Source of the DNA: Morinoia aosen
Taxonomy: Eukaryota; Arthropoda; Malacostraca; Amphipoda; Talitridae
DNA length: 64,000 nt
Assembly (NCBI GenBank): GCA_030386875.1
Contig: CM059563.1
Span: 36,866,139-36,930,138 of the forward strand
Reading direction: 5' to 3'
A program made the translations under genes and the position numbers. The notes under the pieces are model-generated. The model made no database searches and was not told the origin of the DNA. It worked only from the letters and a program-made list of their open reading frames with translations. Below are positions 11,501-32,267 of this stretch, piece by piece. Position 1 is the first letter of the stretch, and the number at the start of each line of letters is the position of its first letter.

Positions 11501-14500
11501 AAAATTCCTGACTCACAACTAAAGAGAAAATTCACATCTAGAATGAAGACACCAATTTTTATCAGTGATAGGGTTTCACTCTACTTCTAAATTAGAATTC
11601 TGCCAACAGTCAGCGTCAGCGTTACTGGCAGTCACCGCAGCAGACACAATACCGCAAGGCTTCCTATGTAAAATAAAATAAAATTAACAGAAGAAACGTT
11701 AATAAAAATTCCTGACTTACAACTAAGGTGAAAATTCACAGCTAGAATTACGACACCAATTTTTATCAGTGATAGGGTTTCACTCTACTTCTAAATTCCA
11801 AGCCTGCCAACAGACAGCGTCAGCGTTACTGGCAGTCACAGCAGCAGACACAATACTGCAAGGCTTCCTATGTATAATAAAATCAAATTAATAAAAGAAA
11901 CGTTCATAAAAATTCCTGACTTACAACTAAGGTGAAAAATCACATCTAGAATGACGACACTAATTTTTATCATTGATAGGGTTTCACTCTACTTCTAAAT
12001 TCGAAGCCTGCCAACAGACAGCCTCAGCGTTAATGGCAGTCACAGCAGCAGACACAATACCGCAAGGCCTCCAATGTAAAATAAAATTAACAAAGGAAAC
12101 GTTCATAAAAATTCCTGACTTACAACTAAGGGGAAAATTCACAGCTAGAATGACGACACCAATTTTTATCAGTGATAGGGTTTCACTCTACTTCTAAATT
12201 CGAAGCCTACAAACAGACAGCGTCAGCGTTACTGGCAGTCACAGCAGCAGACACAATACCGCAAGGCTTCCAATGTAAAATAAAACAAAATTAACAAAAG
12301 AAACGTTAATAAAGATTCCTGACTTATAACTAAGAAGAAAATTCACAGCTAGAATGACGACACCTATTTTAATCAGTGATTGGGTTTCACTCTACTCCTA
12401 AATTCGAAGCCTGCCAACAGACAGCGTCAGCGTTACCGGCAGTCACAGCAGCAGACACGATACCGCAAGGCTTCCAATGTAAAATAAAATAAAATTAACA
12501 AAAGAAACGTTAATATAAATTCCTGACTTACAACTAAGTAGAAAATCCACAGGTAGAATGAGGACACAAATTTTTATGAGTGAAAAGGTTTACTCTAATT
12601 CTAAATTCGACGCCTGCCAACAGACAGCGTCAGCGTTACTGGCATTCACAGCAGCAGACACAATACCGCAAGGCTTCCTATGTAAAATAAAATAAAATTA
12701 ACAGAAGAAACGTTAATAAAAATTCCTGGCTTACAACTAAGGTGAAAATTCACAGCTAGAATTACGACACCAATTTTTATCAGTGATAGGGTTTCACTCT
12801 ACTTCTAAATTCCAAGCCTGCCAACAGACAGCGTCAGCGTTACTGGCAGTCACAGCAGCAGACACAATACCGCAAGGCTTCCTATGTAAAATAAAATAAA
12901 ATTAACAAAAGAAACGTTAATAGAAATTCCTGACTTACAACTGAGGAGAAAATTCACAGCTAGAATGACAACACCACTTTTCATCCGTGAAATGGTTTCA
13001 CTCTACTTCTAAATTCGAAACCTGCCAACAGACAGCGTCAGCGTTACATGCAGTCACAGCAGCAGATACAATACCGCAAGGCTTCCTATGTAAAATAAAA
13101 TAAAATTAACAAAAGAAACGTTAATAAAAATTCATGTTTCACAACTAAGGGACAAATTCACAGCTAGAATGACGACACTAATTTTTATCAGTGAAAGGGT
13201 TTCACTCTACTTCTAAATTCCAATCCTGCCAACAGACAGCATCAGCGTTACTGGCAGTCACAGCAGAAGACACAATACCACAAGGCTTCCTATGTAAAAT
13301 GAAATAAAATTAACAAAAGAAACGTTAATAAAATTCCTGACTTACAACTAAGGAGAAAATTCACAGCTAGAATGACGACACCAATTTTTATCAGTGATAG
13401 GGTTTCACTCTACTTCTAAATTCGAAGCCTGCCAACAGAGAGCGTCAGCGTTACTGGCAGTCACCGCAGCAGACACAATACCGCAAGGCTTCCTATGTAA
13501 AATAAAATAAAACTAATAAAAGAGACGTTTATACAAGTTCCTGACTTACAACTAAGGTGAAAATTCACAGCTAGAATTACGACACCAATTTTTATCAGTG
13601 ATATGGTTTCACTCTACTTCTAAATTCCAAGCCTGCCAACAGACAGCGTCAGCGTTACTGGCAGTCACAGCAGCAGACACAATACTGCAAGGCTTCCTAT
13701 GTATAATAAAATAAAAGAAAATTAATATAAGAAACGTTAATAAAAATTCCTGACTTACAACTAAGGAGGAAAATCACATCTAGAATGACGACACTAATTT
13801 TTATCATTGATAGGGTTTCACTCTACTTCTAAATTCGAAGCCTGCCAACAGACAGCCTCAGCGTTAATGGCAGTCACAGCAGCAGACACAATACCGCAAG
13901 GCTTCCTATGTAAAATAAAATTAACAAAGGAAACGTTAATAAAAATTCCTGACTTACAACTAAGGGGAAAATTCACAGCTAGAATGACGACCCCAATTTA
14001 TATCAGTGATAGGGTTTCAATCTACTTCTAAATTCGAAGCCTGCCAACAGACAGCGTCAGCGTTACTGGCAGTCACAGCAGCAGACACAATACTGCAAGG
14101 CTTCCTATGTATAATAAAATAAAATTAATAAAAGAAACGTTAATAAAAATTCCTGACCTACAACTAAAGAGAAAATTCACAGCTAGAATGACGACACCAA
14201 TTTTTATCAGTGATAGGGTTTCACTCTACTTCTAAATTCGAAGCCTGCAAACAGACAGCGTCAGCGTTACTGGCAGTCACAGCAGCAGACACAATACCGC
14301 AAGGCTTCCTATGTATAATAAAACAAAATTTACAAAAGAAACGTTAATAAAAATTCCTTACTTATAACTAAGAAGAAAATTCACAGCTAGAATGACGACA
14401 CCTATTTTAATCAGTGATTGGGTTTCACTCTACTTCTAAATTCGAAGCCTGCCAACAGACAGCGTCAGCGTTACCGGCAGTCACAGCAGCAGACACGATA

Positions 14501-16139
14501 CCGCAAGGCTTCCAGTGTAAAATAAAATAAAAATAACAAAAGAAACGTTAATAAAAATTCCTGACTTACAACTAAGTAGAAAATTCACAGGTAGAATGAG
14601 GACACCAATTTTTATCAGTGATAGGGTTTCACTCTACTTCTAAATTCGAAGCCTGCCAACAGACAGCGTCAGCGTAACTGGCAGTCACAGCAGCAAACAC
14701 AATACCGCAAGGCTTCCTATGTAAAATAAAATAAAATTAACAAAAGAAACGTTAATAAAAATTCCTGACTTACAACAACGAAGAAAATTCACAGCTAGAA
14801 TGACGACACCAATTTTAACCAGTGATTGGGTTTCATTCTACTTCTAAATTCGAAGCCTTCCAAAAGACAGCGTCAGCGTTACTGGCAGTCACAGCAGCAG
14901 ACACAATACCGCAAGGCTTCCTATGTATAATAAAATAAAATTAATTAAAGAAACGTTAATAAAAATTCCTGACTCACAACTAAAGAGAAAATTCACATCT
15001 AAAATGACGACACCAATTTTTATCAGTGATAGGGTTTCACACTACTTCTAAATTAGAATTCTGCCAACAGTCAGCGTAAGCGTTACTGGCAGTCACCGCA
15101 GCAGACACAATACCGCAAGGCTTCCTATGTAAAATAAAGCAAAATTAACAGAAGAAACATTAATAAAAATTCCTGACTTACAACTAAGGTGAAAATTCAC
15201 AGCTAGAATTACGACACCAATTTTTATCAGTGATAGGGTTTCACTCTACTTCTAAATTCGAAGCCTGCCAACAGACAGCGTCAGCGTTACTGGCAGTCAC
15301 AGCAGCAGACACAATACTGCAAGGCTTCCTATGTATAATAAAATAATATTAATAAAAGAGACGTTAATAAAAATTCCTGACTTACAACTAAGGAGAAAAT
15401 TCACATCTAGAATGACGACACAAATTTTTATCAGTGATAGGGTTTCACTTCACTTCTAAATTCGAAGCCTGCCAACAGACAGCCTCAGCGTTAATGGCAG
15501 TCACAGGAGCAGACACAATACCGCAAGGCTTCCTATGTAAAATAAAATTAACAAAGAAAACGTTAATAAAAATTCCTGACTTACAACTAAGGGGAGAATT
15601 CACAGCTAGAATGACGACACCAATTCTTATCAGTGATAGGTTTCACTCTACTTCTAAATTCGAAGCCTGCCAACAGACAGCGTCAGCGTTACCGGCAGTC
15701 ACAGCAGCAGACACGATACCGCAAGGCTTCCAATGTAAAATAAAATAAAATTAACATAAGAAACGTTAATAAAAATTCCTGACTTACAACTAAGTAGAAA
15801 ATTCACAGGTAGAATGAGGACACCAATTTTTATCAGTGATAGGGTTTCACTCTACTTCTAAATTCGAAGCCTGCCAACAGTCAGCGTCAGCGTTACTGGC
15901 AGTCACAGCAGCAGACACAATACCGCAAGGCTTCCTATGTATAATAAAATAATATTAATAAAAGAAAGCTTAATAAAGATTCCTGACTTAAAACTAAAGA
16001 GAAAATTCACAGCTAGAATGACGACACCAATTTTTATCAGTGATAGGGTTTCACTCTACCTCTAAATTCGAAGCCTGGCAACAGACAGCGTCAGCGTTTA
16101 TGGCAGTCACAGCAGCAGACACAATACCGCAAGGCTTCC

Positions 16140-17070
16140 TATGTAAAATAAAATAATATTAACAAAAGAAACGTTAATAAAAATTCCTCACCTAAAACTA
16201 AGAAGCAAATTCACAGCTAGAATGACGACACCAATTTTTATCAGTGATAAGGTTTCACTCTACTTCTAAATTCGAAGCCTGCAAACAGACAGCGTCAGCG
16301 TTACTAGCAGTCACAGCAGCAGACACAATACCGCAAGGCTTCCTATGTAAAATAAAACAAAATTAACAAAAGAAACGTTAATAAAAATTCCTGACTTACA
16401 ACTAAGAAGAAAATTCACAGCTAGAATGACGACACCTATTTTAATCAGTGATTGGGTTTCACTCTACTTCAAAATTCGAAGCCTGACAACAGACAGCGTC
16501 AGCGTTACTGGCAGTCACAGCAGCAGACACAATACCGCAAGGCTTCCAATGAAAAAAAAAATTAACATTAGAAACGTTAATAAAATTTCCTGACTTACCA
16601 CTAATGAGAAAATTCAAAGATAGAATGACGACACAAATTTTTATCAGTGATAGGGTTTCACTCTACTTCTAAATTCGAAGCCTGCCAACAGTCAGCGTCA
16701 GCGTTACTGGCATTCACAGCAGCAGACACAATACCGCAAGGCTTCCTATGTAAAATAGAATAAAATTAACAAAAAAAAAACGTTAATTAAAATTCCTGAC
16801 TTACAACTAAGGAGAAAATTCACAGCTAGAATGACGACACCAATTTTTATCAGAGATAGGGTTTCACTCTACTTATAAATTCGAAGCCTGCCAACAGACA
16901 GCGTCAGCGTAACTGGCAGTCACCGCAGCAAACACAATACCGCAAGGCTTCCTATGTAAAATAAAATAAAATCAACAAAAGAAACGTTAATAAAAGTTCC
17001 TGACTTACAACAACGAAAAAAATTCACAGCTAGAATGACGACACCAATTTTATTCAGTGATTGGATTTCA
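16140..17070. repeat. Third copy of the 5.16-6.29 kb satellite block, one monomer shorter
   Basis: This stretch follows the variant order of 5163-6290, including the CTAAGAAGCAAATTC monomer, the CCAATGAAAAAAAAAATTAAC monomer and the TTTATTCAGTGATTGGATTTC monomer. The offset falls from 10977 bp at the start to 10778 bp at the end. One monomer is therefore missing here relative to the 5-6 kb copy. The join lies near 16690, where a CAACAGTCAGCG start is fused to an ACTGGCATTCACAG continuation that belongs to two successive monomers in the other copy. This is a clear recombination junction. Confidence 0.8.
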
Positions 17071-17346
17071 CTCTACTTCAAAATTCGAAGCCTGACAACA
17101 GACAGCGTCAGCGTTACTGGCAGTCACAGCAGCAGACACAATACCGCAAGGCTTCCTATGTAAAATAAAATTAACAAAAGAAATGTTAATAAAAATTCCT
17201 GACTTACAACTAAGAAGAAAATTCACAGCTAGAATGACGACACCTATTTTAATCAGTGATTGGGTTTCACTCTACTTCAAAATTCGAAGCCTGACAACAG
17301 ACAGCGTCAGCGTTACTGGCAGTCACAGCAGCAGACACAATACCGC

Positions 17347-17374
17347 AAGAAAGAAAGAAAGAAAGAAAGAAAAC
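17347..17374 (-). repeat. (TTTC)n 3' tail of the LINE
   Basis: The plus strand reads AAGAAAGAAAGAAAGAAAGAA directly after the last satellite base. On the element's coding strand this is a run of about seven TTTC units at the extreme 3' end. Many L2/CR1-group LINEs end in a short tandem repeat rather than poly(A), and target-primed reverse transcription starts there. The position at the satellite junction supports this end being the true 3' terminus. Confidence 0.8.
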
Positions 17375-19113
17375 GGTTTATTTCCAATAGAGATGGTTCA
17401 AAAGTACCATCATTGGTTTTTAAAATATCTTAAAATTAATACACTTAGATGATACACACACACGAGTATTGAAAAACTCGTGTCACTAGTCAAAAGAAAT
17501 GATTGAGGGCAATGAACTCCCAATCTAGCTTAATCTACATTTGATAATACATGTAATGATAATTTTAAGAGATAACACAATTTCATGGACAATGCATTTT
17601 CATTGTGGGGTGAAAACACTTTTGACAGTTTACATGTACATGACATAAAACTTCGCAATTCTTGACGCCAGGAAATAATATATGAAATCGCTTGTTTCGG
17701 TCAATGTTCACAAGTGCCATTTTAAGGAAGCATGAAAAAAAGAAAAATATATATATATATAAATATATATCCATATACACACATATGTACACATTCGTAT
17801 GCATGTGTGTATATATCCATACACACACTCACACACACACACACATACACACACACACACACACATATATACATATGTGTACATATAAGCATGAGGACCA
17901 AGAAGATTATAGTTTTTGCTTTTCTGATTGAACAATTTTAACATAACGGTCATTAGTTAACAAGCATTTTATTTAAATATAAATGGATGATCGCACAACA
18001 AATGTATAGTTTTTACATGAATGCTTTACAATACTAAAGATATGACGAGTTAGGTAATGTTACAAGTTGAGAGTGCACAGAAAAAAGACCATTATCTCTA
18101 GTAAAATGCTAGTTGTCAGTCTAGTACACACATATGTGCACGTATACATGTAAATATTTACACATACACATGCACACATATACCCACGCACATATTTACA
18201 CCTAACTCGTAAGCATACACAAATGCATTTCTATGCATCGAGGCAATACATACGCATTCTACAGAGTGTCATACGCATAACGTGGACACGTACACATTTA
18301 CACAAGTAATCATGTGCGCAAATATCAGCGTAAACTAGTCAGTATAAACCAGAATTCCAATCGAGGGAAACGGAGAAAATATCTTTTATTATAGCATGAA
18401 TTTTATAAAATTTCGTACTAAAAATAGTGGCACAAAACAGTCTACTTAAGTCAGAAACATGAAAACGATTGTGGGACGTGAATAAGAAAGAAAACATTAA
18501 TGTCCTATAAAGGTTTCATATTAGAAAAAAAATCACATTATCTTTGAAATATTGCGCAAATTGTCGTCAATTGATAAACAAACATAGGTATCACATTATT
18601 ATAAGCATATAACTATAAGCCGAATAAGTATATTACTGCAGTATAAATGGATGATCACACAACGAATTTATTTTTTTTACATGGATGCTTTACAATTTCA
18701 TATTATAAAAAATACATTATCTTTGTAATATGGTGCAGAATGTCTGTAATTGATCAACACACACACACATAGGTACCATGACGGTCTAGTTTGATGCTTG
18801 CACAGAAACGGAGAGGAATGACATAAAATGCACCTTCGACTGGTTCATCTACTCTAGTGCACACAGTTGTACGTGCACATATACACACCCATATGCGCAC
18901 ACACACCTATATACGTACACACATATACAAGTAAGCTTGTCCGCAAATGACAACGTATAGGCGGTCAAATCATAATACCTACGCATACTTCAAAACTGTT
19001 GTTTGATGTCTTGAATTATAAAACAATGAGCGAGGGAGATTGTTCAGCAATGGAGATGCCAGGTAAATGAGATTCGTCAGTACTCATTCAGTATGTTCTG
19101 TAACTAAGGATTA
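17375..19113 (-). other. LINE 3' untranslated region
   Basis: About 1.74 kb between the ORF2 stop and the tetranucleotide tail. It is A/T-rich, has no credible reading frame and contains many ACACAT/TACACA runs. It carries internal duplications: the piece around 17981 (AAATGGATGATCGCACAAC) recurs near 18645, and TTCATATTA followed by ACATTATCTTTG-like sequence near 18516 recurs near 18696. A CTAG-plus-CACACATATG segment near 18120 resembles one near 18855. The UTR thus grew by tandem duplication of ~0.66-0.72-kb pieces that later diverged. Confidence 0.7.
17740..17890. repeat. TA/CA microsatellite in the LINE 3' UTR
   Basis: A low-complexity tract of (TA)n followed by interrupted (CA)n and TACACACA runs, with an AAAAATATATATATATA core near 17747 and CACACACACACACACATA near 17850. 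Short open frames rich in Tyr, Thr and His on both strands here are artefacts of the repeat. The alternating purine-pyrimidine tract could adopt non-B structure. Confidence 0.9.
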
Positions 19114-20442
19114 TTATTGAGACACAAGATGACGAGTTATTTTGGATTTAAATTCTCTCGGTCTTTGAGGGACTTTAATACTCAGGGGAAGTTTGTTCCA
19201 CAGTAAGGCGCCTGATATGGACAGAGCCTTCTGCCCTAAGTGAGATGAACGATAGTTGACTAAGACATTATTGTTTCTGTTCGGTTTTTGATTGGTTACA
19301 GTGGGTGGATGGAAACGCACTATCTCAGCATTGCTCTGAGGAAGATATAACGAGGAGAATACGTATTGGGCCTTCTGCATGAGGAGCCTTTCTTGGATAG
19401 GGATCCAGCCGAGTTTATTGAGGAGAGGGGTTACGTGATCACTTCTTTTGAAATTACCGTTGCATACCACCTTGGCTGCAAAATTCATGCATTTTTGTAA
19501 GTCCCTTTGAAGGTATTGAGGTAAGTCTCCCCATACTAGGCTGCAGTAGTCAATGCGCGATAACACAAGGGATTGAATGGCTAATAATCTGGATTTTTCG
19601 TCTAGCATACTTTTTATACGATGAAAAAACATTGAAGTTCCGTAGATTTTGTTGCAAGTAGTCTCAACGTGAGATTTGAAGGACATATTTCTATCGAACC
19701 AGATACCTAGATTTTTAACTTTTTCTGATGCATTAATTTTATCATTTCCAACTGCAAGAGTAAGATCTGAAGTTTTTTTAATTGCATCTTTGGATCCAAA
19801 AATAATGCATTGTGTTTTATGAGCATTTAATTTGAGACCATTTCGGTCGTACCATGATTTCAGGCTAGTCAGTAAAGTTTCGGCTTTAACTTGCGTCTGT
19901 GGTATTTCCGATACAGAACTTGTTATTGCAATTTGAACATCATCTGCATACATTGAGATCCGTGTGTTAGAAGGCATTGGAGGGAAATCATTAATGAAAA
20001 TAGAAAACAGTAGCGGACCTAGAATGGATCCTTGCGGAACACCAAAATTGTTTTGAATGAATGGGGACAATTTGTTTTCTATGCGGACTGCATGAGATCG
20101 ATTTGACAAGTAACTTTCAAACCATTGCGTGTCTATTCCCAAGTTTAGTATTTTACGTAGAAGTCTTTCATGTTGGACGCTATCGAACGCCTTAGAGAGA
20201 TCGAGTAGTAGCAAGAGTGTTACATTCTTTTGATTGATGTCACTGTATATTTTTTCAGATATATTGAGCAGAGCGTCTTGAGTGCTAGTATTTCTTCTAT
20301 AGGCATATTGAGTTTGGTGGAGTAAATTTGACTCGTCCAGGTGAAATGACAGTTGATTTGTCACCACTTTCTCCAATAGTTTGGACATGACAGGCAAAAG
20401 ACTGATGGGCCTGTAGTTTGATGCTGTATTTAGGTCACCACT
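19114..20442 (-). pseudogene. LINE ORF2 fragment: reverse transcriptase palm, thumb and C-terminal domain
   Basis: Open frame after the in-frame TAA at 20443-20445. Counting from the internal Met at 20397 (427 residues), the RT blocks are in order: NYRPISLLPVMSKLLEK just before and at the start, QYAYRRNTSTQDAL at about 30-43, motif A LDLSKAFD at 65-72, motif B GVPQGSILGPLL at 119-130, motif C YADD at 150-153, motif D WYDRNGLKLN at 182-191, then LGIWFD. The C-terminal GQKALSISGALLWNKLP block is typical of L2/CR1-type elements. The enzyme would copy the element RNA at the nicked target. All three catalytic Asp (one in motif A, two in YADD) are present, so decay is recent or limited. There is no RNase H domain. 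The frame is continuous with the two upstream fragments. Confidence 0.93.
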
Positions 20443-21078
20443 TTAGTGCAACGGTCTAATAATGGAGTGTTTCCATTGGTTTGGAAACGTATTGGTTACT
20501 ATTGATGTATTAATTATCAGACGAATCCATGGTGCTGTAACAGGGAAACTGTCTTTGATATATTGAAGACTGATAACATCATGTCCAACTGCCTTTGTGT
20601 TTTTTAGTGAGTATAAGATGTTTCGTAACTCTGATAAATCGACAGAGCGTGGTCTCCACTTGACATCAGTCCTCGAGGGTGCAGTGGGGCATGAATTTTT
20701 AATTGTCGTTTCATCTGGATTGGTACACACCTCACTGAAAACTTGAGCCCCTACTTTTGAAAAGAATGTGTTGAAATCCGTGGCTGTTGCCAAGGGATTT
20801 TCAAAATTACTTATGCGATCTAAATTTTTATATGGGGCTACCTCACTAATGATTTCCCAAGTTCGCTTCGGGTTATTTTTAGCCGTTATCAGTGCCTGGT
20901 GGAAGTGAGTTTGTTTCGCTTCAGTGATTTTCTTTCGAAGAATTTTTTCATGTTCTTTATATCTCTTGTATAAGGTACTGTTTGATCTATTGTTTTTGTA
21001 CTCTCGCAAGTTAGCTTTCTTTATTCTGCTCATCTCTCTAACTTCGTCAGTAATCCAAACAGTCCGTTTTGGCTTGGT
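20443..21078 (-). pseudogene. LINE ORF2 fragment: endonuclease-RT linker and RT N-terminal region
   Basis: Open frame between in-frame TAA codons at 21079-21081 and 20443-20445. It begins with a VWITDEVREM segment that matches the linker which follows the endonuclease in Jockey-group ORF2, then a Lys/Arg-rich stretch (residues 1-60 from the Met at 21033) and a WEIISEV block. It ends in HSIIRPLH, directly before the fingers sequence NYRPIS of the next fragment. The terminal TAA stands where related elements have a Lys-type codon before SGD and is one substitution from sense. It is part of one ORF2 and not a separate gene; the internal Met is unlikely to be a real start. Confidence 0.85.
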
Positions 21079-22086
21079 TTATTTTGGTGACGTAAGGTGC
21101 ACATTCGTCGAGAGCTGCTGTGAAGTTCTCTTTGAACTTCTTCTTTGAAGTTCTCTGTCAACATCGTCAGATTGCATCATTTTCTGGAATTCGGTAGACC
21201 TATCGAGCAGTTTTTCTTGAAATAGTTCTGCCGAATAGTGCCTTTTCGAGCGATAGGTCATTAAGTGGTATTTTTGTCTTTCCTTCGCAATATTAATTTC
21301 ACATTCTATAGAGTGGTGATCGGAAATAGAAGGTAATATTACTGTACTAAGTATTGCGGTGGGATTATTTGTGATTGCTAGATCGAGGAGAGTTGCAGAG
21401 ACTTTAGTGATGCGAGTCGGTTCTTTGACCATTTGTGATAAGCTTAGTTTATACAATAGTTTGCTTAGCTGATTGTTTTTGTCCGTTAGGTCAACATTGA
21501 AATCTCCGAAAGCAAAGAATGATTTTTTTGCCTGAAGGATTTCTTTGAAGGTTTCCTCAATGAAATCTAGTGTTAGATTTAGGGGAGACGATGGGTGCCG
21601 GTAAAGGCTGCCAATGATTATTGATTTGTGTTTATTTATTTGCACTTCTAACCAAACCATTTCAATGCCTTCGCAAACTCTATTAGCTAGTAGTGAAGAT
21701 GTTGAGTATATTTCTTTCACAAAAATACAAGATCCACTACCTCGGCTGGTTTTAGCGCCATCGTAGCGGTACAACACGTAATCAGGAATTTTAAAAAATG
21801 AACTTTGGGTTCGTGAATCAAACCATGTTTCTGAGACACACAAAATGTAAATTTTTTCAGTGACCAACATTACTCTGATTTCATCCAATTTACCATTCAG
21901 GCTTCGAGCATTTACATGCTTGATTTTGATTTTACCTATATTAGCACTCTTTTTAAAGGTAGCGAGGTTACTATCTCGATGGGATCGTTCAGGGGATTTA
22001 TCGATTTTGTCTAAGTTGCCCAGGGTGTTTGGCCCAGCATCTGCTATGTAAGAAAGTCTGCTATTTGGCTGGGCAGCGGCACTTTG
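21079..22086 (-). pseudogene. LINE ORF2 fragment: APE-type endonuclease domain
   Basis: Open frame after the in-frame TGA at 22087-22089. The endonuclease nicks the target DNA for target-primed reverse transcription. Motifs in order: VNARSLNGKLDEI (the conserved Asn, upstream of the internal Met at 21888), CVSETWFD (catalytic Glu), SLYRHPSS, FAFGDFNVDL (Asp/Asn pair), LLDLAITN and SISDHHSIE (terminal Asp-His). All catalytic residues expected of the APE fold are present. Near the C-terminus, between about 21150 and 21080, the expected NFKENF...LDECAPYVTKI sequence lies in another frame of the same strand. This suggests a frameshift and a compensating one, and it explains the TAA at 21079. A small GAACTTCAAAGAA duplication sits at the first shift. 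Confidence 0.92.
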
Positions 22087-22584
22087 TCAAGATGAGGTAA
22101 CCCCGGTCTGATTTTTGCCTTGTGTGACAAGAGCACTGTAGTGATCGTTTTTCCGATGGAGCAGTAGTGGAGGGTTATTATTTGATAACTCTGAAATGGG
22201 AACGACTGATATTTTCAAAACACAATGATCTCGTTCATCCAGGACGAGAAGTTTTTGGCCTGTCACATTTGAAATGATTAGTGGTATAAGGTCTACAGCA
22301 GCTTGGTCAAAATGTTTTTCGTCAATGTAATTATCTATGAGGTTTTGCATGTCGCCACTGTTCTTGTCAAAAAACTTAGCATATGTGCTGTAGTTTGCTT
22401 TACTCTCTGTTTTGATTGCAGCCTTTAGGGAATTGTAATTCCATTTTGATGCTGGTTGTTTTGTAAGTAGATGAGCTACTGCGTGGAGGAGGCAGTGTCC
22501 ATCGGCTTTGGTGGGAATCAGTTTTATGTTCCATGATCGTTGACGGTAGATAGATCCGGTTTTCTTAAATACGATTCCTTTTTC
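22087..22584 (-). pseudogene. LINE ORF2 N-terminal fragment: OTU-like cysteine protease domain
   Basis: In-frame open stretch from after a TAA at 22585-22587 to the TGA at 22087-22089, in the same frame as the endonuclease. It encodes ADGHCLLHAV, matching the OTU nucleophile block (Asp-Gly-x-Cys; Cys codon 22494-22492). 117 codons later comes PLLLHRKNDHYSAL, matching the OTU catalytic His block (His codon 22143-22141). The spacing and the intervening DLIPLIISN and LLVLDE strands fit the OTU fold. OTU enzymes cleave ubiquitin-type isopeptide bonds; a role in processing ORF2 or in removing host ubiquitin is inference. No Met codon precedes the Cys in this frame, so the true N-terminus is lost, frameshifted or non-AUG. 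The third catalytic residue cannot be assigned by eye. Confidence 0.83.
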
Positions 22585-23159
22585 TTAGTTTGTTTCTTGG
22601 TTCAATCGCTAGGCCGCTTCCAGTATTGCGCTGTCCTCCTGCCCCGTCATTAGTAAGTTTAAACTGTTGTCGATAACCTTAATTTACTTGCGCATACTTT
22701 GATTTATACTAATTGCCCTAGTCAAGTCACCGGTTTCAATTTTTGTTTTCTTATTTCATTACAGGTCTTACGAGCACCCATTTGCCCATGCCAGTATAGT
22801 ACAGCTCAGTGTCAGTTTATCGGTCTCAGTTTATGTATCAGTGTAATCTCTTAATTAGCATAATTCGAGTTCCTATTGTGTTCTTCCCACGTGTTCAGTA
22901 GAAGTTGCGATTATTTTATTCCTTAGTGTTATCCTTTTGTCTCGTATTTAACTTTTGCCTCATATTTAAGTTTGGCTTGCGTTCAAATTAAAATGTCATT
23001 TCCTTCTGAGATTGTTTATCCTGGTATTATAAATGTATTAAATCTTGTTCATGAAAGCCCTCAAATACGGATCTTCAACAAATCCTTCGCCCTAGTAGGC
23101 ATATCGAACTAATGGCTAGAGTTTGCCCTGACATCGTTTCAATTCATCCATTGTGGAAT
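22585..23159 (-). other. LINE inter-ORF region with a possible frameshifted ORF2 N-terminus
   Basis: 575 bp between the ORF1 stop and the OTU frame. Most shows no coding pattern on either strand. Between about 22678 and 22570 another minus-strand frame encodes a plausible basic stretch (NDGAGGQRNTGSG, then EPRNKLRKRNRI) that runs to a TAA just before the OTU frame opens. This could be the original ORF2 N-terminus displaced by a single-base indel near 22570. The plus strand has a pyrimidine tract ending in CATTACAG near 22763 that resembles a splice acceptor, but nothing else supports splicing. Confidence 0.45.
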
Positions 23160-25091
23160 TCATGCGTTCACAAAAGGGGCTGGAGACGTTTTTTTCGCAC
23201 TTTTTTCGTCATTAAGAGGTTCTGAGAGGTGAGGGGAATTTACGTTTTTCTGGCTCTGAATTCCCGTTCTGTGGTGATTTCTCGTATGGGGATTTGCAGA
23301 GAACTGAGAAATGCTCGTGTCAATTATATTTTTCTGGTGATGATTGTGCATACCGTTGGGTAGTGGATTTTCCATCGATTGTCGACTGCAATTTTGCAGC
23401 GATTTCTCTCTTCCTGTGGATTTTACTGCTTCCGAGTATGTGATTGGATGTTGATTTATACTCGTGTCTGAGAGGGGCTTTTCATCCTCTTCATCAGCAT
23501 TGGATAGCAACGAAAACCTATTTTTTGTAGGCACTCCGCAGTTGTTTGTGGCGGATGCAGGAGAGGGCTTGTTATATGAGGGCAAACATCGGGAGGAGAG
23601 GGGAGGAGAGGGTTTGTTATATGAAGGCAAACATCGGTTTAGGCTGCTGGAGGTTTCACGTGGATAGGCGGTCAACTTAGAACAATCATTCAACTCATTT
23701 TGCTGTTTTGAATAATCATTAGAGTATTCAATTTCTTCATTCAGATCATGGGAGTTTCTGACACAGGAGATAAAATTTGAAGTTAGTCTCAAAGGTGATT
23801 TTAGAGCAATTTGTTGAAGAAAATGATGCGTGTCTTCTCGCGTAACGGGCCAAGTGCGGACATTGTTGTAAGCTTCATCAACAGGACCGGTTTTTACATT
23901 TGCTCGCAGCGGAATCAGTTTAAGACCAATTTTTCTGCACAGGCTCGATGCCATGTACAATTGCTGCCCACTGCAGGCACTCACCACATAAATACGAGAA
24001 AGAAGATTCTTTGTCATGATCAGATTTTTTAACTTCGTGAGATTTTGGGACGAGAGGCTCAAACCTTTGAAACTAATTATATAGTTCCTGAAAGGAGGTG
24101 CGCGTTCAATCTCATCATAGAGATCATTTAGACGTTCCGAAGTTATGGTCTGAATCCTGCATGCACTATCAACGTCATCTCTGTTGATTTTTGTGAGACT
24201 ATTGTCTCCAACGAGAAAAGTGTCTAAAGGGGATTTCGCATAAGGATGGTTACTCGCAGCTACCACCGGCGTAAAATCATGAGCGCTGATACGATAATTT
24301 AAAGCAAAAAGCTGTTCTGTAATCACTTGAATATTTGATACAGTGGAAAAAATCGACGCTGGGCTTGGGGGATAATTTTGTCTCAAAGCTTTATTGAGAA
24401 ATGCAGCTGTAAGAGACAGCGTGTTATTTATTTCGTGAATAGTTTGGGAACTGGTCATTTGGAGAGGATGTAAGTACCCATCAAAAGCGGTAACAGGTCT
24501 GGTTGTATTTTTCTCCACTGAAAATCTTACGTTATCCTCGCAGTTTACGCTCTGAGGTATTTTACTGCCAGTATCAGCTGCTGCGTATGCATTTTCAAAC
24601 ATAACTTCGCCACCTGAAAGGTCTACACACAATTTATCATTAAAATTATAATTAAAATTACCCCTTTTACTTTCTGACTGATTGCACACATCCAAAATTT
24701 TATCGCGTTCTAACGATGACGTTGGTGTTTCCGTCGGCGGTGAACGATTTTGGGCTTTCTCAGTGACGCAGGGCAGGGGTGACGTCGCCATGACGCAATC
24801 GTTTAGGCGAGACGAAGGAGCTCGCAGTGCTGTGGCAGATTCCGCCAGTGACGCGGTATCTTCTTTACTAAAGATTCTCGGCTTTGTGGACGACGAGTCT
24901 TCTCGGACACAGTCCAAAGCGTGGGGTTGCGAGTCGAGTGCTGCTTGTACGTAATTTCTTGAACTCGCTTCGGGTGTGCCCGTAGCAGGTTTCAGAACTT
25001 GAGAAGATGAATTATTACTGGGAGCTGAATTATTACAAGCAGCGTCTGAGAGATTTTCGCACGTGTCAGATGACTCAGATTTTGCAGTCAT
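23160..25091 (-). CDS. LINE ORF1 protein, main part (643 aa)
   Basis: The longest intact frame in the window, from ATG at 25091 to TGA at 23162-23160. ORF1 proteins of LINEs normally bind and chaperone the element RNA. No zinc knuckle, RRM or clear coiled coil is visible. The first ~190 residues are Ser/Thr/Asn-rich and low complexity. Residues ~230-430 look globular; FLVGDNSLTKI near residue 290 and LSRIYVVSACSG near 370 resemble in order the strands of the SGNH esterase-like domain of some CR1/L2 ORF1 proteins, but the catalytic motifs are not convincing. Residues ~485-510 carry a tandem RCLPSYNKPSP repeat, visible in DNA as a duplicated piece at about 23566-23637. The start follows the upstream frame by a TAA-CTA-ATG junction in the same frame, so the protein may originally have begun at 25349. 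Confidence 0.78.
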   Translation of the reverse strand: MTAKSESSDTCENLSDAACNNSAPSNNSSSQVLKPATGTPEASSRNYVQAALDSQPHALDCVREDSSSTKPRIFSKEDTASLAESATALRAPSSRLNDCVMATSPLPCVTEKAQNRSPPTETPTSSLERDKILDVCNQSESKRGNFNYNFNDKLCVDLSGGEVMFENAYAAADTGSKIPQSVNCEDNVRFSVEKNTTRPVTAFDGYLHPLQMTSSQTIHEINNTLSLTAAFLNKALRQNYPPSPASIFSTVSNIQVITEQLFALNYRISAHDFTPVVAASNHPYAKSPLDTFLVGDNSLTKINRDDVDSACRIQTITSERLNDLYDEIERAPPFRNYIISFKGLSLSSQNLTKLKNLIMTKNLLSRIYVVSACSGQQLYMASSLCRKIGLKLIPLRANVKTGPVDEAYNNVRTWPVTREDTHHFLQQIALKSPLRLTSNFISCVRNSHDLNEEIEYSNDYSKQQNELNDCSKLTAYPRETSSSLNRCLPSYNKPSPPLSSRCLPSYNKPSPASATNNCGVPTKNRFSLLSNADEEDEKPLSDTSINQHPITYSEAVKSTGREKSLQNCSRQSMENPLPNGMHNHHQKNIIDTSISQFSANPHTRNHHRTGIQSQKNVNSPHLSEPLNDEKSAKKTSPAPFVNA

Positions 25092-25094
25092 TAG

Positions 25095-25349
25095 TTATGT
25101 TTTAGGGGCTGAGAAACACTTGCTTATATCAGACTTCACGAACGTCCGAGAAGCATTTTTCGGTTTGAGTGTTTGAGGACCTTGAACTGATGGATTTACA
25201 GGGGCGGATTTATTAGGTCTGCCTTTCTGCTTTATGGCTGGTGCTTTGCGCTTTTTACTGAGCTTTTCGTACGAAGCTGTACTGGAGGATGTTGTTTTTT
25301 CAGATGGGGCAACCTTCCGAGTAGTTGAACGAGTTCTATATTGATACAT
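25095..25349 (-). CDS. LINE ORF1 N-terminal segment, basic, ending at an in-frame TAA (84 aa)
   Basis: ATG at 25349 to TAA at 25097-25095, in the same frame as the 643-aa ORF1 that starts one sense codon later. It is strongly basic with Ser/Thr: KKRKAP resembles a nuclear localisation signal and KQKGRPNK resembles an AT-hook core (GRP flanked by basic residues), which would suit nucleic-acid binding. Either the TAA is a nonsense mutation that cut off the N-terminus of ORF1, or the two are read by reinitiation or readthrough at TAA-CTA-ATG. The sequence alone does not decide. Confidence 0.65.
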   Translation of the reverse strand: MYQYRTRSTTRKVAPSEKTTSSSTASYEKLSKKRKAPAIKQKGRPNKSAPVNPSVQGPQTLKPKNASRTFVKSDISKCFSAPKT

Positions 25350-27339
25350 TGTGACGTTGATAGAGAGGAAGAAAAATTAAATTTTGTTCATTGGGTTAAA
25401 GTAGAAGACCTCGCCTTTTAAAGGTAGATAAAAAGAGACTGCCAGTAGGAAAGGGGGGGGGGGCTTGGGGTGTAAGCCAGAGGAGGACAGAGTGTGAGCG
25501 GGAGGAGGGGGCAGGATGCTTGCGGTCGGCAGAGCAGAGCAGCGTTGCTTGCTGTCCTGCTTGGGGAAGAAAAGAGAAAAGAAAAAAAAAGAAAAGAAAG
25601 AAAAGAACTTCAACTTTTCCATAGAAGATTGCTCTGGTGAACTATTCGAGGAACGTCGTATTGTTCAAGTTTACTTCACATTGTGGAATTATGCTCTGTG
25701 TGTGAACACAGGCTCACTATATATGTTTAACATGGTAAATTATTTCCGAAGTTACTGGATCAAGTTTATTTAATTTTTATATTTAAAAGTTCCTTCAAAG
25801 AAGAAGAAGTGAATAAAAACGACAATGACGTTCAAACTTTTGCAGGTTGACACATTTTACTCATTCAGTTTCTCAACGTTTCATAATTACAAAATTTGTA
25901 AATTTGTAAATTTGTAATCCCTCATTCACTTTTTATGTCACTATTTACCAAAGTTAACTGGTGGGTCACTATTTGACCAAAAGAAAAGTTAAATTTTTTA
26001 ATTCAGAGGAAGTTGAAAAATTGGGTGACTAACTTTCAACAAGAAAAATAGCTATCATTAAAATGTTTGCGGATGAGGGATTGCGTTGCTCGTTCACATA
26101 TGAAGACGAAAATGACTGCCTCTTAATGCCAGATGAAGAGAAGCCGCCCGTAAGCAAGAGGGGGAGGGGTAGAGGAAAAGAGAAGGTAGAGTAGACAGAG
26201 ACGGGGGTGCGGGGGAGCAGGATGCTTGCGGTGATCCAGCTTGGCGTTGCTCGTTCGTCTGCTTGTGAAGAAAACAATACAATTTTTTCCGTGTGAAGAT
26301 TGCTATGGTGAGCTATCCACCAGACGTCATATTGCTGAAAATTCGCCTCACGTTGTGGAATTATGTTCTAGCAGTGAACACAGATTTCAGTGTCAGTGTC
26401 AGTGAACATAGACAGTAGACTCATTTTTTTGGTAGGATGCCCCAGAAGTCGCTGAACTTATTCGGGCCCACAGGTAGCTATATTCAAACTTGTCCATTGT
26501 ACTAGACTTAAGAAACATTCTACCTCTGTATCTCCTGTGGTAAATAAATTGTTTAAATTGTTAAAAAATTGTTTAAGTTAGCCACTATTACAGCGTGGCA
26601 ATTTTTCCAGGGATAGGGTAGGCTGGGGGGAGGAAGGGGTGCGGGCGCAGACTTGGGGTAGCTGGGCCCTCACAGAGGTCTAGTGTTTCAGGGTGTCGCA
26701 TTTTATTCACTCATTTTGAGACCTTCAACATTTACAGAATTTATTTTTCTCTAAATCACTTTTTACGTCACTGTTTCACAAAGAGTTCTCAATAAAAGGA
26801 CAGAGTTACTTACTGGTAAAGTAATTTGAGCACAATTTTGAGGATTAAAGGTCGAAATTGAGCGTCATAGACACTCAACATAATTTTTGTAATAACTGAT
26901 AAAAATTACAAAAAAATTATCACTGTGTTTTATGTTTGTCTTCACGAAATTCAAATTTGCTACTGCATCGGACCTTTTTTGTTTACATGGTGGTATTAGT
27001 GGTACGTTTTTTCTATATGCGGAAGAGGGAGGAGCCGGCGTTGCGGTTGACCAGGGAGGGAAGCTACACCGAGGGTTGCTACACAGACTTCGAGTGGAGA
27101 CAAAGTTTACAGAAAGCACCAGTCTGTTTTTGCACAATAAAATTGGTCACAACTGATTGTATTTAATAACTGTTTTTCATTTTCGCGATTCGATGAGGTA
27201 GAAAGCACATTCACAGATACTCAGTTCGAGTTTGGGGTTTGGGGAAAGTTTCGTTCCCTTACATTTTGAAATGTTTGACGCCGCGTTTATGCGGAGCGTC
27301 AGTTCACCTCCGCACCCGACGAGCCGCACCCGAGTCCAA
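25350..27339 (-). promoter_or_regulatory. LINE 5' leader / presumed internal promoter region
   Basis: About 2 kb upstream of ORF1 with no convincing reading frame. LINE promoters are internal and lie here by family knowledge. The extreme 5' end on the minus strand is G/C-rich and contains TCGGGTGCGG twice, 14 bp apart (27333-27324 and 27319-27310). The leader holds diverged internal duplications: GCAGGATGCTTGCGGT at 25511 and 26217; GAAGATTGCT(C/A)TGGTGA, followed by a TTGTGGAATTATG block, near 25624 and 26295; CACTTTTTA(T/C)GTCACT at 25927 and 26758. Also present are an 11-G run at 25453-25463, a polypurine run at about 25564-25607 and other G-rich stretches near 26160-26215 and 26620-26650. 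Confidence 0.6.
25885..25918. repeat. Short palindromic tandem repeat (AAATTTGTA)n
   Basis: Three copies of a 9-bp AAATTTGTA unit flanked by AATTAC on the left and GTAAT on the right. The unit is nearly self-complementary, so the tract can form a small A/T hairpin. It lies in the LINE leader and has no obvious role. Confidence 0.75.
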
Positions 27340-29805
27340 GCAAGGCTTCCAATGAAAAAAAAAATTAACATAAGAAACGTTAATAAAAATTCCTGACTTA
27401 CCACTAATGAGAAAATTCAAAGCTAGAATGACGACACCAATTTTTATCAGTGATAGGGTTTCACTCTACTTCTAAATTCGAAGCCTGCCAACAGTCAGCG
27501 TCAGCGTTTCTGGCAGTCACAGCAGCAGACACAATACCGCAAGGATTCCAATGTAAAATAAAAATGATTAACAAAAGAAACGTTAATAAAAATTCCTGAC
27601 TTACAACTAAGTGGAAAATTCACGGGTAGAATGACGATACCAATTTTTATCAGTGATAAGGTTCACTCTAATTCTAAATTCAAAGCCTGCCAACAGACAG
27701 CGTCAGCGTTACTGGCATTCACAGCAGCAGATACAATACCGCAAGGATTCCTATGTAAAATAGAATAAAATTACCAAGATAAACGTTCATAAAAGTTCCT
27801 GACTTACAACTAAGGAGAAAATTCACATTAGAATGACGACACCAATTTTTATCAGAGATAGGGTTTCACTCTACTTATAAATTCGAAGCCTGCCAACAGA
27901 CAGCGTCAGCGTAACTGGCAGTCACAGCAGCAAACACAATACCGCAAGGCTTCCTATGTAAAATAAAATGAAATCAACAGTAGAAACGTTAATAAAAATT
28001 CCTGACTTACAACAACGAAGAAAATTCACAGCTAGAATGACGACACCAATTTTAACCAGTGATTGGGTTTCACTCTACTTCTAAATTCGAAGCCTTCCAA
28101 CAGACAGCGTCAGCGTTACTGGCAGTCACAGCAGCAGACACAATACTGCAAGGCTTCCTATGTAAAATAAAATAAAATTAACACAAGAAACGTTGATAAA
28201 AATTCATGACCTACAACTAAGAAGAAAATTCACAGCTAGAATGACGACACCAATTTTAATCAGTGGTTGGGTTTCACTCTACTTCTGAATTCGATGCCTG
28301 CCAACAGACAGCGTCAGCGTTACTGACAGTCACAGCAGCAGACACAATACCGCAAGGCTTCCTATGTAAAAAAAAAATTAACAAAAGAAACGTTAATAAA
28401 AATTCCTGACTTACAACTAAGGAGAAAATTCACAGCTGGAATGACGACACCAATTTTTATCAGTGAAAGGGCTTCACTCTACTTCTAAATTCGAAGCATG
28501 CCAACAGACAGCGTCAGCGTTACTGGCAGTCACAGCAGCAGACACAATACCGCAAGGCTACCTATTTATAACAAAATAAAATTAATAAAAGAAACGTTAA
28601 TGAAAATTCCTGACTTACAACTAAAAAGAAAATTCACAGCTAGAATGACGACACCAATTTTTATCAGTGATAGGGTTTCACTCTACTTCTAAATTCGAAG
28701 CCTGCTAACAGACAGCGTCAGCGTTACTGTCAGTCAAAGCAGCAGACACAACACCGCACGGTTTCCTATGTAAAATAAAATATAATAAACAGAAGTAAAG
28801 TTAATTATAATTCCAGACTTAAAACTAAGGGGAAAATTCACAGCTAGAATGACGACACCAATTTTTATCAGTGATAGGGTTTCACTCTACTTCTTAATTC
28901 GAAGCCTGCCAACAGACAGCGTCAGCGTTACTGGCAGTCGCAGCAGCAAACACAATACCTCAAGGCCTCCTATGCAAAATAAAAAAAATTTACAAAAGAA
29001 ACGTTAATAAAAATTCCTTCCTCACAACTAAGGACAAAATTTACAGCTAGAATGACGACACCAATTTTTATCAGTAATAGGGTTTCACTCTACTTTTAAA
29101 TTCGAAGCCTGCCAACAGACAGCGTCAGCGTCACTGGCAGTCACAACGCAGACACAATACTGCAAGGCTTCCTTTGTAAAATAAAATGAAATTAACAAAA
29201 GAAACGTTAATAAAAATTTCTGACTTACAACTAAGGAGAAAATTCACAGCTTGAGTGACGACACCAATTTCAATCTGTGATTGGGTTTCACTCTACTTAT
29301 AAATTCGAAGCCTGCCAACAGACAACGTCAGCGTTACTGGCAGTCACAGCAGCAGACACAATACCGCATGGCTTCCTATGTAAAATAAAATAAAATTAAC
29401 AAAAGATACGTTGATAAAAATTCCTGACCTACAACTAAGAAGAAAATTCACAGCTAGAATGACGACACCAATTTTTATCAGTGAAAGGGTTTCACTCTAC
29501 TTATAAATTCGAAGCCTGCCAACAGACAGCGTCAGCGTTACTGGCAGTCACAGCAGCAAACACAATACCTCAAGGCCTCCCTTGCAAAATAATAAAAAAT
29601 TTACAAAAGAAACGTTAATTAAAAATCCTTTCTTACAACTAAGGACAAAGTTTACAGCTAGAATGACGACACCAATTTTTATCAGTAATAGGGTTTCACT
29701 CTACTTTTAAATTCGAAGCCTGCCAACAGACAGCGTCAGCGTCACTGGCAGTCACAACGCAGACACAATACTGCAAGGCTTCCTTTGTAAAATAAAATGA
29801 AATTA
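27340..29805. repeat. Satellite array, middle block between LINE and PLE
   Basis: About 12 monomers continuing the same array in the same orientation and phase. The first partial monomer (CAAGGCTTCCAATGAAAAAAA) completes the one truncated at 17349. Variants link it to both neighbours: the ATGAAAAAAAAA monomer also occurs near 5570 and 16550, and the ACAGAAGTAAAGTTAATTAT monomer near 28788 recurs near 41690 and 43525. The block ends at the PLE with the TSD ATAAAATGAAATTA. No gene was seen. Confidence 0.96.
28940..29805. repeat. Three-monomer local repeat (609-bp period)
   Basis: The monomer with CAAACACAATACCTCAAGGC near 28946 recurs near 29555, offset about 609 bp (three monomers), followed in both by GGACAAA(A/G)TTTACAGC and by an ACAACGCAGAC/TTCCTTTGTAAAATAAAATG monomer. 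The second copy of that last monomer is the one into which the PLE inserted; the first copy, around 29158-29310, preserves the uninterrupted target. Confidence 0.82.
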
Positions 29806-29834
29806 GGAATATTTATCTTAACGATTAGACTAAT

Positions 29835-30119
29835 TATAAAATTTAGGGCAAGAACCACACCACAAAGCATATTATTTTTTCAAAAATTAAAAAAACATAT
29901 TTGTGGTCATCTATAAGAACGTTTCGGGCCGAAACCCATCTTCAGCTAAGAAATCTGGAATGATAAAAAAGTCGTACGTAAAATAGAAAAACATGAGCCA
30001 GATATTTGAACAAAAAACATTTATAAAGCAAAAAAATTTTTTAAAACAGACACGAAAACTGCAACAGCTACGCATCACAAAGGAACAAAAGACAAAGCGC
30101 TTAAAAAATAAAATCGAAG
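29835..30119. repeat. PLE left inverted terminal repeat
   Basis: 285 bp that match 32336-32620 as a reverse complement with only a handful of differences. It begins TATAAAATTTAGGGCAAG and ends AATAAAATCGAAG. A 29-bp segment (29806-29834) lies outside it with no counterpart at the other end, so the left end is longer. The hairpin-like motif GTTTCGGGCCGAAAC at 29921-29935 is the antisense form of the motif in the right repeat. Confidence 0.92.
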
Positions 30120-31064
30120 TCATTTTTAGTCATTTTTAGATCTGTGCGTCTCTCAATTGGTGAATTTATAGCTGCCACGAAGGTCACTCATGTGAAGAAA
30201 CTCAAAGATCTGGGAATTCTCAACCATCTTCAGCCCTGCAACCCTGACAAGGTCATTTTCAACTTCAGCTCTATTCACCTAACTTCACGTCTTAGAACTC
30301 TACTGGCTTTTGGCTTGGATTTTGGTTTGCCCGTGTACAAACTTGATTATTTTAAATATTTTCTATGTTTCGAAAAGTTAGCGCTTGATCTTAAATCTCA
30401 AATAATTGCAGAAGATACTAGTTTTGATGAATTTTGCAACCGCTTGCGGTCAGTGACTCATAAATTCTTTTACAACTTCAGAAGTTCAAAAATATTTCCT
30501 GCTGTATTTTCGTATGCAGATGTAGCCTTGTTGAAAGAGCTAGGCCGTAATCCGAATCTGGTCGTGTGTAAGCCTGATAAGGGCCGGGGTGTGGTCCTTG
30601 TTGACAGACCGGTATATGTCGAAAAAATGACCGCTATTATTTCTGACCCCACAAAATTTGAAATAATAATTGAACCTATTCATCTCTACGCTACCAAAAT
30701 AGAGGATAAAATCAACAACTTTTCGCGCAAACTCAAGAAGATTTCGGTGCTCAGTGACGGAGTTTACAATAGCTTGTTTGTTTCCGGTTCTGGCCCAGGC
30801 ATACTATATGGCTTACCTAAGGTTCACAAGGCCGATTTCGCTAGGAAGTTTCAATTTAGACCCATATTTGCCGCTTATAATACGCCTAGCTTCAAAATTG
30901 CAAAGTATCTCGTTCCTGTTTTAAACCCACTTACCACTAGTAATTACACTGTTGATAATTCATTTGTATTTATAGATAGACTCTCCAAACTAAGCAGTTC
31001 AGCTAATTATTTTATGGCATCCTTTGACGTTGAAAGTCTGTTCACCAATGTACCTTTAAAATAA
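30105..31064 (+). pseudogene. PLE ORF fragment: N-terminal part and RT fingers/palm to motif A
   Basis: Open from just after a TAA at 30102 to a TAA at 31062-31064; the first usable start-like codon is GTG at 30144, and no ATG precedes the conserved region. Counting from 30144 there are 306 residues. CKPDKGRGVVLVDRPVY is the Penelope N-terminal RT block, LYGLPKVHK and RPIFAAYNTP are the fingers blocks, and SFDVESLFTNVPL at the end is RT motif A with its catalytic Asp. The stop falls immediately after motif A; the same frame then continues with MDICISQLF, so the TAA is a nonsense change and not the natural end. The RT copies the element RNA at the target. Confidence 0.92.
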
Positions 31065-31220
31065 ACCATGGATATTTGTATTTCGCAGCTTTTTAGAAAT
31101 GCTGCTTCCACTGTTTTAGGGTTATCGCGGGATCTGTTTAAAACCTTGCTTGAGCATAGTGTTCTTAATTCATTTTTTATTTTCGAGGGCAAATTATACA
31201 GGTAGCTTGATGGTCTGGGG
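31065..31220 (+). pseudogene. PLE ORF segment between the two nonsense codons
   Basis: Same frame as the flanking fragments. It encodes about 46 residues with Penelope-like sequence (MDICISQLF, FIFEGKLYR) and then a TAG at 31203-31205 just ahead of the motif B segment LDGLGMGLPLGP. Family members read through this region without stops, and the TAG stands where a Gln-type codon is usual. It joins the two larger fragments into one gene. Confidence 0.85.
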
Positions 31221-32267
31221 ATGGGACTTCCCCTGGGGCCAACGTTTGCCAATCTTTTTATGAGCCATCACGAAAAGGCTTGGTTGCGGGATTGTCCTCA
31301 AGAGTTTGCCCCAATATTTTATCAGAGATACATCGATGATGGTTTCGTTTTGTTTAAGGACCCTTCTCATCCCCATCTCTTCCTTGAATATCTTAATAGT
31401 AAACACGATTCAATTAATTTCACCATGGAATGCGAAAGCAACAACCAGTTAGCGTTTTTAGATACCATGGTCACCAGGCGCAATGGCACGCTGGAAACTT
31501 CTGTGTTTAGGAAACCCTCTTTTTCGGGCCTTGGTTCTAGTTTTTTTAGTTTTTGTTCTTTTAAATTTAAAATCAATGCAATTAAAACTCTGCTATCTAG
31601 AGCTTATATGATCTGCTCGACATATGAGGTTTTACATGCTGAACTTCAATTTTTACGTTCTTTTTTTACTGACAATGGTTTTCCTCTTAATTTAGTTGAA
31701 TCGAAAATTAGGTATTTTCTGGATAGCATACACAAAGCTGATCCTACGCCTTTGACCGCTGCGAAATTGGATATGTTTGTTTCAATGCCATACTTTGGTC
31801 AGCAATCTGAAAAATTGAAACGTGAATTATTGCAACTTGTGTCAACCTACTTTCCCCAAATTTCCCTCAAGCTCATCCCTGTCAATTCTTATACAATAGG
31901 TTCCTTGTTCCATTACAAAGACAAAATTCCAATGTGTCTCCGCTCTTGCTTAGTTTATCGTTTTCGTTGTGCACAGTGTGCATCTGCATATGTTGGTTCT
32001 ACGAACCGAACTTTGCGCGTTAGGCGAGCTGAGCACGTTGGAATCAGTCATAGAACAGGTGCACGTCTTTGCCACCCATCCCACTCTTCGATCCGTTCAC
32101 ACACTGATTTTCAATGTAACGTAAAAATCTCAGACTCTGACTTTTCTATCATTGGCTCCTCTAGTTCTTCCATAAAACTTAGAATATTAGAATCTCTGCA
32201 TATTCATAAATCCAAACCTGAGCTCAACGACATGCAAAGTGCGCATCCTCTACTTTTAGTTGGTTAG
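31221..32267 (+). pseudogene. PLE ORF fragment: RT motifs B-E, thumb and GIY-YIG endonuclease
   Basis: 348 residues from the Met within motif B. MGLPLGPTFANLFM at 1-14 is motif B, and RYIDDGFVLF at 36-45 is motif C with the catalytic Asp pair. LAFLDTMVTR (78-87) and TSVFRKPSFSG (93-103) are the downstream Penelope blocks, and SRAYMICS (126-133) lies in the thumb. The C-terminal domain from about 240 has the GIY-YIG layout: VYRFRC with a CAQC pair, YVGST at 257-261, LRVRRAEHVGISHRTG at 265-280, and ESLHIHKSKPELN at 324-336 with the likely catalytic Glu. This endonuclease would nick the target DNA. The whole frame from 30144 is ~707 codons, close to family length. All visible catalytic residues are intact. 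Confidence 0.94.

Follow-up and report, generated by a model that had tools for sequence, protein, structure and literature searches.

Does a LINE of the L2/CR1 type carry an OTU-type cysteine protease at the head of its endonuclease–reverse transcriptase (RT) protein? The question arises from a minus-strand reading frame at 22087–22584 of a 64,000-nucleotide stretch of contig CM059563.1 from the amphipod Morinoia aosen (hereafter, the window). The window consists mostly of 204-bp satellite repeats in tandem (1–17349, 27356–29805 and 32618–64000), interrupted by two retroelements, one a minus-strand LINE and the other an apparent Penelope-like element on the plus strand (30105–32267). The entire LINE insertion occupies 17349–27339 (minus strand; 5′ end at 27339, 3′ end at 17349; approximately 9,991 bp), the satellite stopping at 17349 and restarting at 27356. 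Its junctions, read in the sequence, are ...AAGCCTTGC on the left and TTGCGGTATT... on the right, and in a second quotation ...GGAAGCCTTGC and TTGCGGTATTG.... Comparison of these flanks with the intact satellite word GGAAGCCTTGCGGTATTGTG, which occurs 114 times in the window, reveals a target site duplication of 4 bp, TTGC, at 27340–27343 on the 5′ side and, by reading of the junction, at 17345–17348 on the 3′ side (both minus strand; 5 bp, CTTGC, when the final base of the 3′ repeat is included). Because the insertion is bounded by satellite and flanked by a target duplication, the OTU-like segment lies within a single insertion; one or more nested insertions inside the LINE are possible.

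The Penelope-like element in the same satellite matches RVT_1 at an E of 1.3e-4 and GIY-YIG at an E of 0.046, each below its family cut-off, and lies between 286-nt inverted arms (29834–30119 and 32336–32621) that are 98% complementary. A hammerhead-like core CTGAAGA...GAAA, which we take to be the hammerhead core motif, occurs at this element once per strand, and no hammerhead is found there in Rfam up to E 10.

Within the LINE, the OTU, endonuclease, middle and RT frames share one register, which is interrupted by three stops, the TGA after the OTU frame followed by two TAA codons. This copy is therefore dead; it is apparently full-length and retains its domains. The frame of 21079–22086 (minus strand, ending in TAA) comprises a linker and an APE endonuclease (Pfam Exo_endo_phos_2, E 2.7e-8), in which a motif scan finds NARS, SETW, GDFN and SDH retained; by eye, the reading is apparently frame-shifted near its 3′ end, at about 21150–21070. 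The middle stretch (20443–21078, minus strand, same register, ending in TAA) matches no Pfam family and is matched by tblastn to the equivalent stretch of other LINEs. The RT and C-terminal part follows at 19114–20442 (minus strand, same register), with a Pfam RVT_1 match at E 2.8e-38, a match to LINE-1 ORF2p in the PDB at E 1.3e-12, and the motifs DLSKAFD, PQGS, YADD, DYC and LWNKLP in the motif scan. Downstream of these frames, the 3′ region holds just two short sense-strand frames of 81–82 amino acids.

Searching GTDB with a generic LINE RT pattern yields 19 contigs (L001–L019) in bacterial and archaeal species genomes, which we take for eukaryotic contamination of metagenome-assembled genomes (MAGs) and which serve for comparison. 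The RT tree has 17 rows, the window and 16 of these 19 loci, with L001 and L013 (no 600-residue open frame) and L012 (RT segment shorter than 200 residues) left out; two contigs from separate MAGs, L002 and L011, are identical in their RT rows. In this tree, which contains no named reference RTs, the RT of the window clusters with those of L003, L014 and L017 at 86/95, which falls short of what the tool treats as a firm branch. The motifs DYC[NS], LWNxLP and YADD of the window RT recur in L003 and L014, and L017 has YADD alone; we take DYC, LWNxLP and YADD to be hallmarks of L2/CR1 RTs. The APE endonuclease lies upstream of the RT, as in the L2/CR1 group. L2/CR1 LINEs also end in a microsatellite instead of poly(A) and lack RNase H. 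In agreement with the first of these features, the element ends in a (TTTC)6 3′-terminal microsatellite (17349–17372, minus strand), and no RNase H is matched by Pfam in the RT frame. Across the four ORF2 frames, Pfam finds only OTU, APE and RT, with neither a restriction-like endonuclease nor RNase H, although a diverged endonuclease may escape Pfam. Taken together, motifs and tree grouping support the earlier assignment by sequence alone: the RT looks L2/CR1-like, and the clade name is a strong lead that falls short of a test, since no named reference RT enters the comparison.

The OTU-like domain frame extends over 22087–22584 (minus strand) and comprises 165 codons followed by the TGA at 22089–22087. 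Catalysis in the OTU family relies on the Asp of a D-G-x-C motif, the Cys of the same motif and a His, the last located in an H-[YWF] block more than 100 residues downstream of the Cys. The sequence-only reading had pointed to two such blocks in this frame, and both are present: the Cys block ADGHCLLHAV (22477–22506; residues 27–36, with Asp28 and Cys31) and the His block PLLLHRKNDHYSAL (22129–22170; residues 139–152, with His148), both on the minus strand. The spacing from Cys31 to His148 is 117 residues, comparable to the 112 residues measured in a Helentron OTU (L020), so that Asp28, Cys31 and His148 place all three OTU positions at OTU-like spacing. The frame is also unusually long. Specifically, it is the longest sense-strand open frame in 22087–23159, where dinucleotide shuffles average 72 codons, and its length is reached by 2 of 5000 shuffles. 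Its codon usage is weakly like that of the rest of the element, being the best of the six frames and equalled by 89 of 5000 shuffles. No ATG precedes Cys31, the first being codon 79.

The profile search that the earlier reading had put forward as a check returns OTU (PF02338) as the only Pfam family, with an E value of 4.5e-4 against the whole library and residues 26–86 aligned to positions 1–57 of the 128-position profile. The score of 21.1 bits falls 2.2 bits short of the curated cut-off of 23.3, and the alignment covers just the N-terminal half of the profile, so the OTU identity claimed earlier gains support at a level slightly below the family threshold. The trimmed domain performs similarly (E 3.7e-4, 21.4 bits), and no second family appears at E ≤ 10. 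In a PDB sequence search, the sole chain listed at E ≤ 10 is EschOTU, an OTU protein, at a non-significant E of 0.38. Of eight control sequences (one reversed, seven shuffled), none matches OTU at E ≤ 1, and other families are matched by two of them at E 0.05–0.08. Searched alone, the last 87 residues, which include the His block, match no family at E ≤ 10, and the His block therefore rests on motif and spacing. Single-sequence AlphaFold models of the segment have low mean pLDDT values of 36 and 42. An NCBIfam match to YccE (E 0.0077) and PHROG matches (E 0.057 and 0.14) are too weak to use.

That the likeness to OTU is spurious, or that the domain derives from OTU and has lost its activity, would fit the score below the Pfam cut-off and the His half without an independent match. 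Against this stand the absence of any competitor, as OTU is both the only Pfam family and the only PDB match while the controls find none, and the position of the His block at a plausible spacing beyond the part that the profile matches. We regard such a spurious or inactive domain as highly improbable, and on this sequence evidence the domain is very probably of OTU ancestry.

If the domain is an OTU, is it part of the endonuclease–RT protein? The frame at 22584–22087 passes straight into the APE frame at 22086–21079 without a change of register. After the TGA, an inter-domain linker (21922–22086, minus strand) leads to the endonuclease start through 55 open codons that contain no ATG. In the hydrophilic 68-codon stretch between the two domains, this frame holds one stop, versus three and eight in the other sense frames and two, two and five in the antisense frames; that the single TGA is the only interruption from OTU to endonuclease, as stated earlier, is thus borne out in the frame reading. 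The chance of at most one stop in 68 codons is 0.017 at the stop rate of the spacer upstream of the OTU frame and 0.13 at the composition of the stretch itself. Codon usage of the linker is unlike the rest of the element, with 692 of 5000 shuffles equalling it and another frame scoring best. We also considered the missing ATG as proof of fusion and dropped it, because 5 of 11 comparison LINEs (L004, L012, L016, L018 and L019) likewise have no ATG upstream of theirs, so that the point is weak; the 11 are drawn from 17 LINE proteins by an endonuclease match at E ≤ 1e-3, and the rows of L002 and L011 among them are identical. Of the earlier proposal of an OTU–APE fusion, the part that stands is that the OTU lies directly ahead of the endonuclease, in the same register and inside one LINE; the fusion itself is unproven, with one TGA in between.

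These observations bear on a second reading, in which the OTU is a separate small protein encoded by its own ORF between ORF1 and the endonuclease–RT ORF, the TGA being a true stop that is perhaps followed by reinitiation or passed by readthrough. The TGA falls exactly between the domains, an endonuclease start without ATG is tolerated in those 5 of 11 comparison LINEs, and the sections consulted of a study of Helentrons report that these elements encode OTU in additional ORFs (PMC4067079). Conversely, the endonuclease frame stays open for 55 codons upstream without offering an ATG, and the OTU and endonuclease frames are in register. Moreover, the TGA is unremarkable because the copy has two further in-frame stops. 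A separate OTU protein is accordingly an unlikely reading, and, given that the domain is an OTU, its fusion to the endonuclease is probable from the arrangement of the frames.

The region upstream of the OTU frame informs a third reading, in which the OTU is a processing protease that cuts itself off the endonuclease–RT protein. The LINE has a 5′ region of about 2 kb before its ORF1 candidates, and no ribozyme at the 5′ end appears in the Rfam listing up to E 5 (17000–32700). Rfam microRNA matches in 17000–32700 lie in TG/TA repeats, far under the gathering scores, and were set aside. A possible N-terminal part of ORF1 (25095–25376, minus strand) is a 93-codon open frame that ends in TAA and matches no Pfam family at E ≤ 10. 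The ORF1 candidate itself (23160–25094, minus strand; 644 codons) has no recognised domain: Pfam gives a single match at E 0.21, far below the family cut-off, NCBIfam gives nothing at E ≤ 1, and a motif scan finds no CCHC knuckle. The two parts share one register with a single TAA between them, and their junction at 25089–25097 (minus strand) reads TAACTAATG, a stop followed by an in-frame ATG start. This stop-start at TAACTAATG might signal reinitiation instead of reflecting decay.

Between the ORF1 candidate and the OTU frame lies an apparently noncoding spacer of 575 nt (22585–23159, minus strand), with 49 stops in 573 codons summed over the three sense frames and stops in every frame. No second copy of it occurs within the window. 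An intron in the spacer is unlikely by eye, since the sequence is A-rich and the OTU frame is not preceded by a pyrimidine tract. Self-processing is carried out by OTU-like proteases in some RNA viruses, and the 68-codon hydrophilic linker between OTU and endonuclease would offer a place for such a cut. ORF1, however, is cut off from the OTU frame by 575 nt in which every frame has stops, and most OTU enzymes act on ubiquitin. Because no ORF1–ORF2 polyprotein is visible, self-processing is the less likely role; we consider it improbable, and the polyprotein-processing function suggested earlier finds no support here.

Is an OTU at this position without precedent? Domain databases list proteins that combine OTU with RVT_1. 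According to the parts consulted of a survey of the Jockey superfamily, which covers 448 elements from CR1, L2 and their relatives, the domains found ahead of the endonuclease are RRM, CCHC, Tnp22, CTD, coiled coil, PHD, esterase and zinc finger/leucine zipper (PMC4120745). In the same survey, PHD probably lies at the start of ORF2 in L2 subgroup 5 and CR1 subgroup 4, and at the start of a single ORF in L2 subgroup 4 and CR1 subgroup 6 (PMC4120745); the terms OTU, protease, ubiquitin and peptidase are absent from its main text. The PHD-bearing L2/CR1 LINEs therefore resemble the window LINE in placing an accessory domain ahead of APE and an L2/CR1-type RT, yet differ in that this domain is PHD rather than OTU. 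Among the literature matches listed (mostly titles and abstracts, with few subscription journals and without Repbase), none places an OTU in a CR1/L2 LINE. An accessory slot ahead of APE is thus already known in CR1/L2, and an OTU in this slot is new as far as we found. A related side observation is a LINE ORF (L008:35–3160) that combines PHD, APE and RT in a single frame; it lies on a contig of a Bathymodiolus gill symbiont, which is probably DNA of the host mussel.

OTU and similar proteases are known from other mobile elements. In the sections consulted, Ginger1 DNA transposons are described with a C-terminal OTU or Ulp1 (PMC2836005); like the window LINE they carry OTU, but with a DDE transposase and at the C-terminus. 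OTU is likewise reported in Helentrons, which are Helitron-like elements (PMC4067079, PMC6431247; both consulted in part). One Helentron turned up in our own searches: contig 11 of a Poribacteria MAG (G013) contains, at L021:5798–13138, a 2447-residue frame with Helitron_like_N, PIF1 helicase, APE and OTU, most likely as eukaryotic (host) contamination of the MAG. Both this Helentron and the window LINE combine OTU with APE; L021, however, is a rolling-circle DNA transposon with the order Rep-Helicase-APE-OTU, and the five LINE frames match no Helitron or PIF1 family (Rep/Helicase) in Pfam at E ≤ 1. The L021 APE is 20% identical to that of the window (E 8e-4), weaker than 14 of 17 LINE proteins in the same search, and the two OTUs have no significant match to each other. 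A joint derivation of the Helentron APE and OTU from an OTU-bearing LINE was therefore dropped, and we claim no common origin because neither L021 domain is close to its counterpart in the window.

Among LINEs, those of the nematode NeSL/Utopia group have an N-terminal Ulp1-like protease, as described in the parts of the source consulted (PMC4640811). Both they and the window LINE thus place a cysteine protease of the ubiquitin world at the N-terminus of an RT protein; the NeSL/Utopia protease, in contrast, is of the Ulp1 type and accompanies a restriction-like endonuclease and another RT lineage. Dualen/RandI LINEs of algae are said to carry an OTU-like protease. Dualen has two endonucleases and RNase H, according to the portion consulted of PMC4640811, in which the term OTU is absent. 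Dualen/RandI elements accordingly combine APE, a restriction-like endonuclease and RNase H, whereas the window LINE displays APE only.

Searches for relatives of the element cover viral and prokaryotic collections. In IMG/VR, the OTU and RT proteins produce 3 and 5 pattern matches, respectively, without a confirmed relative among them, and the generic LINE RT pattern and the OTU pattern give none; a strict RT pattern finds nothing in GTDB contigs, and tblastn against phages gives no match. DGxC is absent from open frames of at least 80 residues in all 19 LINE contigs, only some of which reach upstream of the endonuclease. Genome searches with PF02338 comprise batches of 15, 84, 101, 398, 156 and 42 (796 in total, a few centres counted twice) at E limits from 0.01 to 1e-6, and their sole match is one place in G013, the Helentron L020/L021. 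The batches of 101, 398, 156 and 42 genomes are no proof of absence because no control genome matched in them either.

With no second copy found, a further reading is that the segment is confined to this copy, as a piece of a host gene or of another transposon that was captured and landed ahead of the endonuclease. Other transposons, such as Helentrons and Ginger1, carry OTU, and both the spacer and the lack of a start codon would be consistent with a disturbed 5′ part of ORF2. Capture of this kind fits poorly with an OTU that shares the endonuclease register across a largely open linker, and a repeat scan of 15000–26000 (minimum length 30) finds no repeats at the segment edges. Taken together, a private capture appears rather improbable. 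These explanations overlap, as a privately captured segment may also be fused, and their likelihoods need not total one.

We therefore lean, with restrained confidence, towards a LINE whose ORF2 protein carried an N-terminal OTU cysteine protease in the order OTU–linker–APE–RT and used it as a deubiquitinase in cis, the element being L2/CR1-like and the present copy dead. In living copies of this LINE, the TGA would be absent or passed. What is known of the OTU family suggests that the domain would act as a deubiquitinase on the assembly to which it belongs. One option is that it trims ubiquitin off the ORF2 protein or its ribonucleoprotein, which could thereby escape the proteasome. Alternatively, it may trim ubiquitin off chromatin or repair proteins at the nick, allowing target-primed reverse transcription to be completed. 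By analogy, the occurrence of OTU beside APE in Helentrons suggests that independent elements may gain from the same activity. The element is known here from one copy, in which Asp28-x-x-Cys31 and His148 are kept. A broader proposal, which we hold tentatively and with slightly less than even expectation, is that a lineage of L2/CR1-type animal LINEs gained an OTU deubiquitinase as the integral N-terminus of ORF2, by which the RT would shield itself from ubiquitin-based host defence.

Host cells restrict LINEs partly via ubiquitin and the proteasome. If our reading is true, a LINE that carries a deubiquitinase on the protein of its endonuclease and RT would provide direct evidence of elements countering restriction at the level of ubiquitin. 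It would also add an L2/CR1-type LINE to the Helentrons, Ginger1 transposons and nematode NeSL/Utopia LINEs that carry OTU or Ulp1 in the accounts consulted, and would thereby point to a repeated, probably independent gain of such proteases by unrelated mobile elements.
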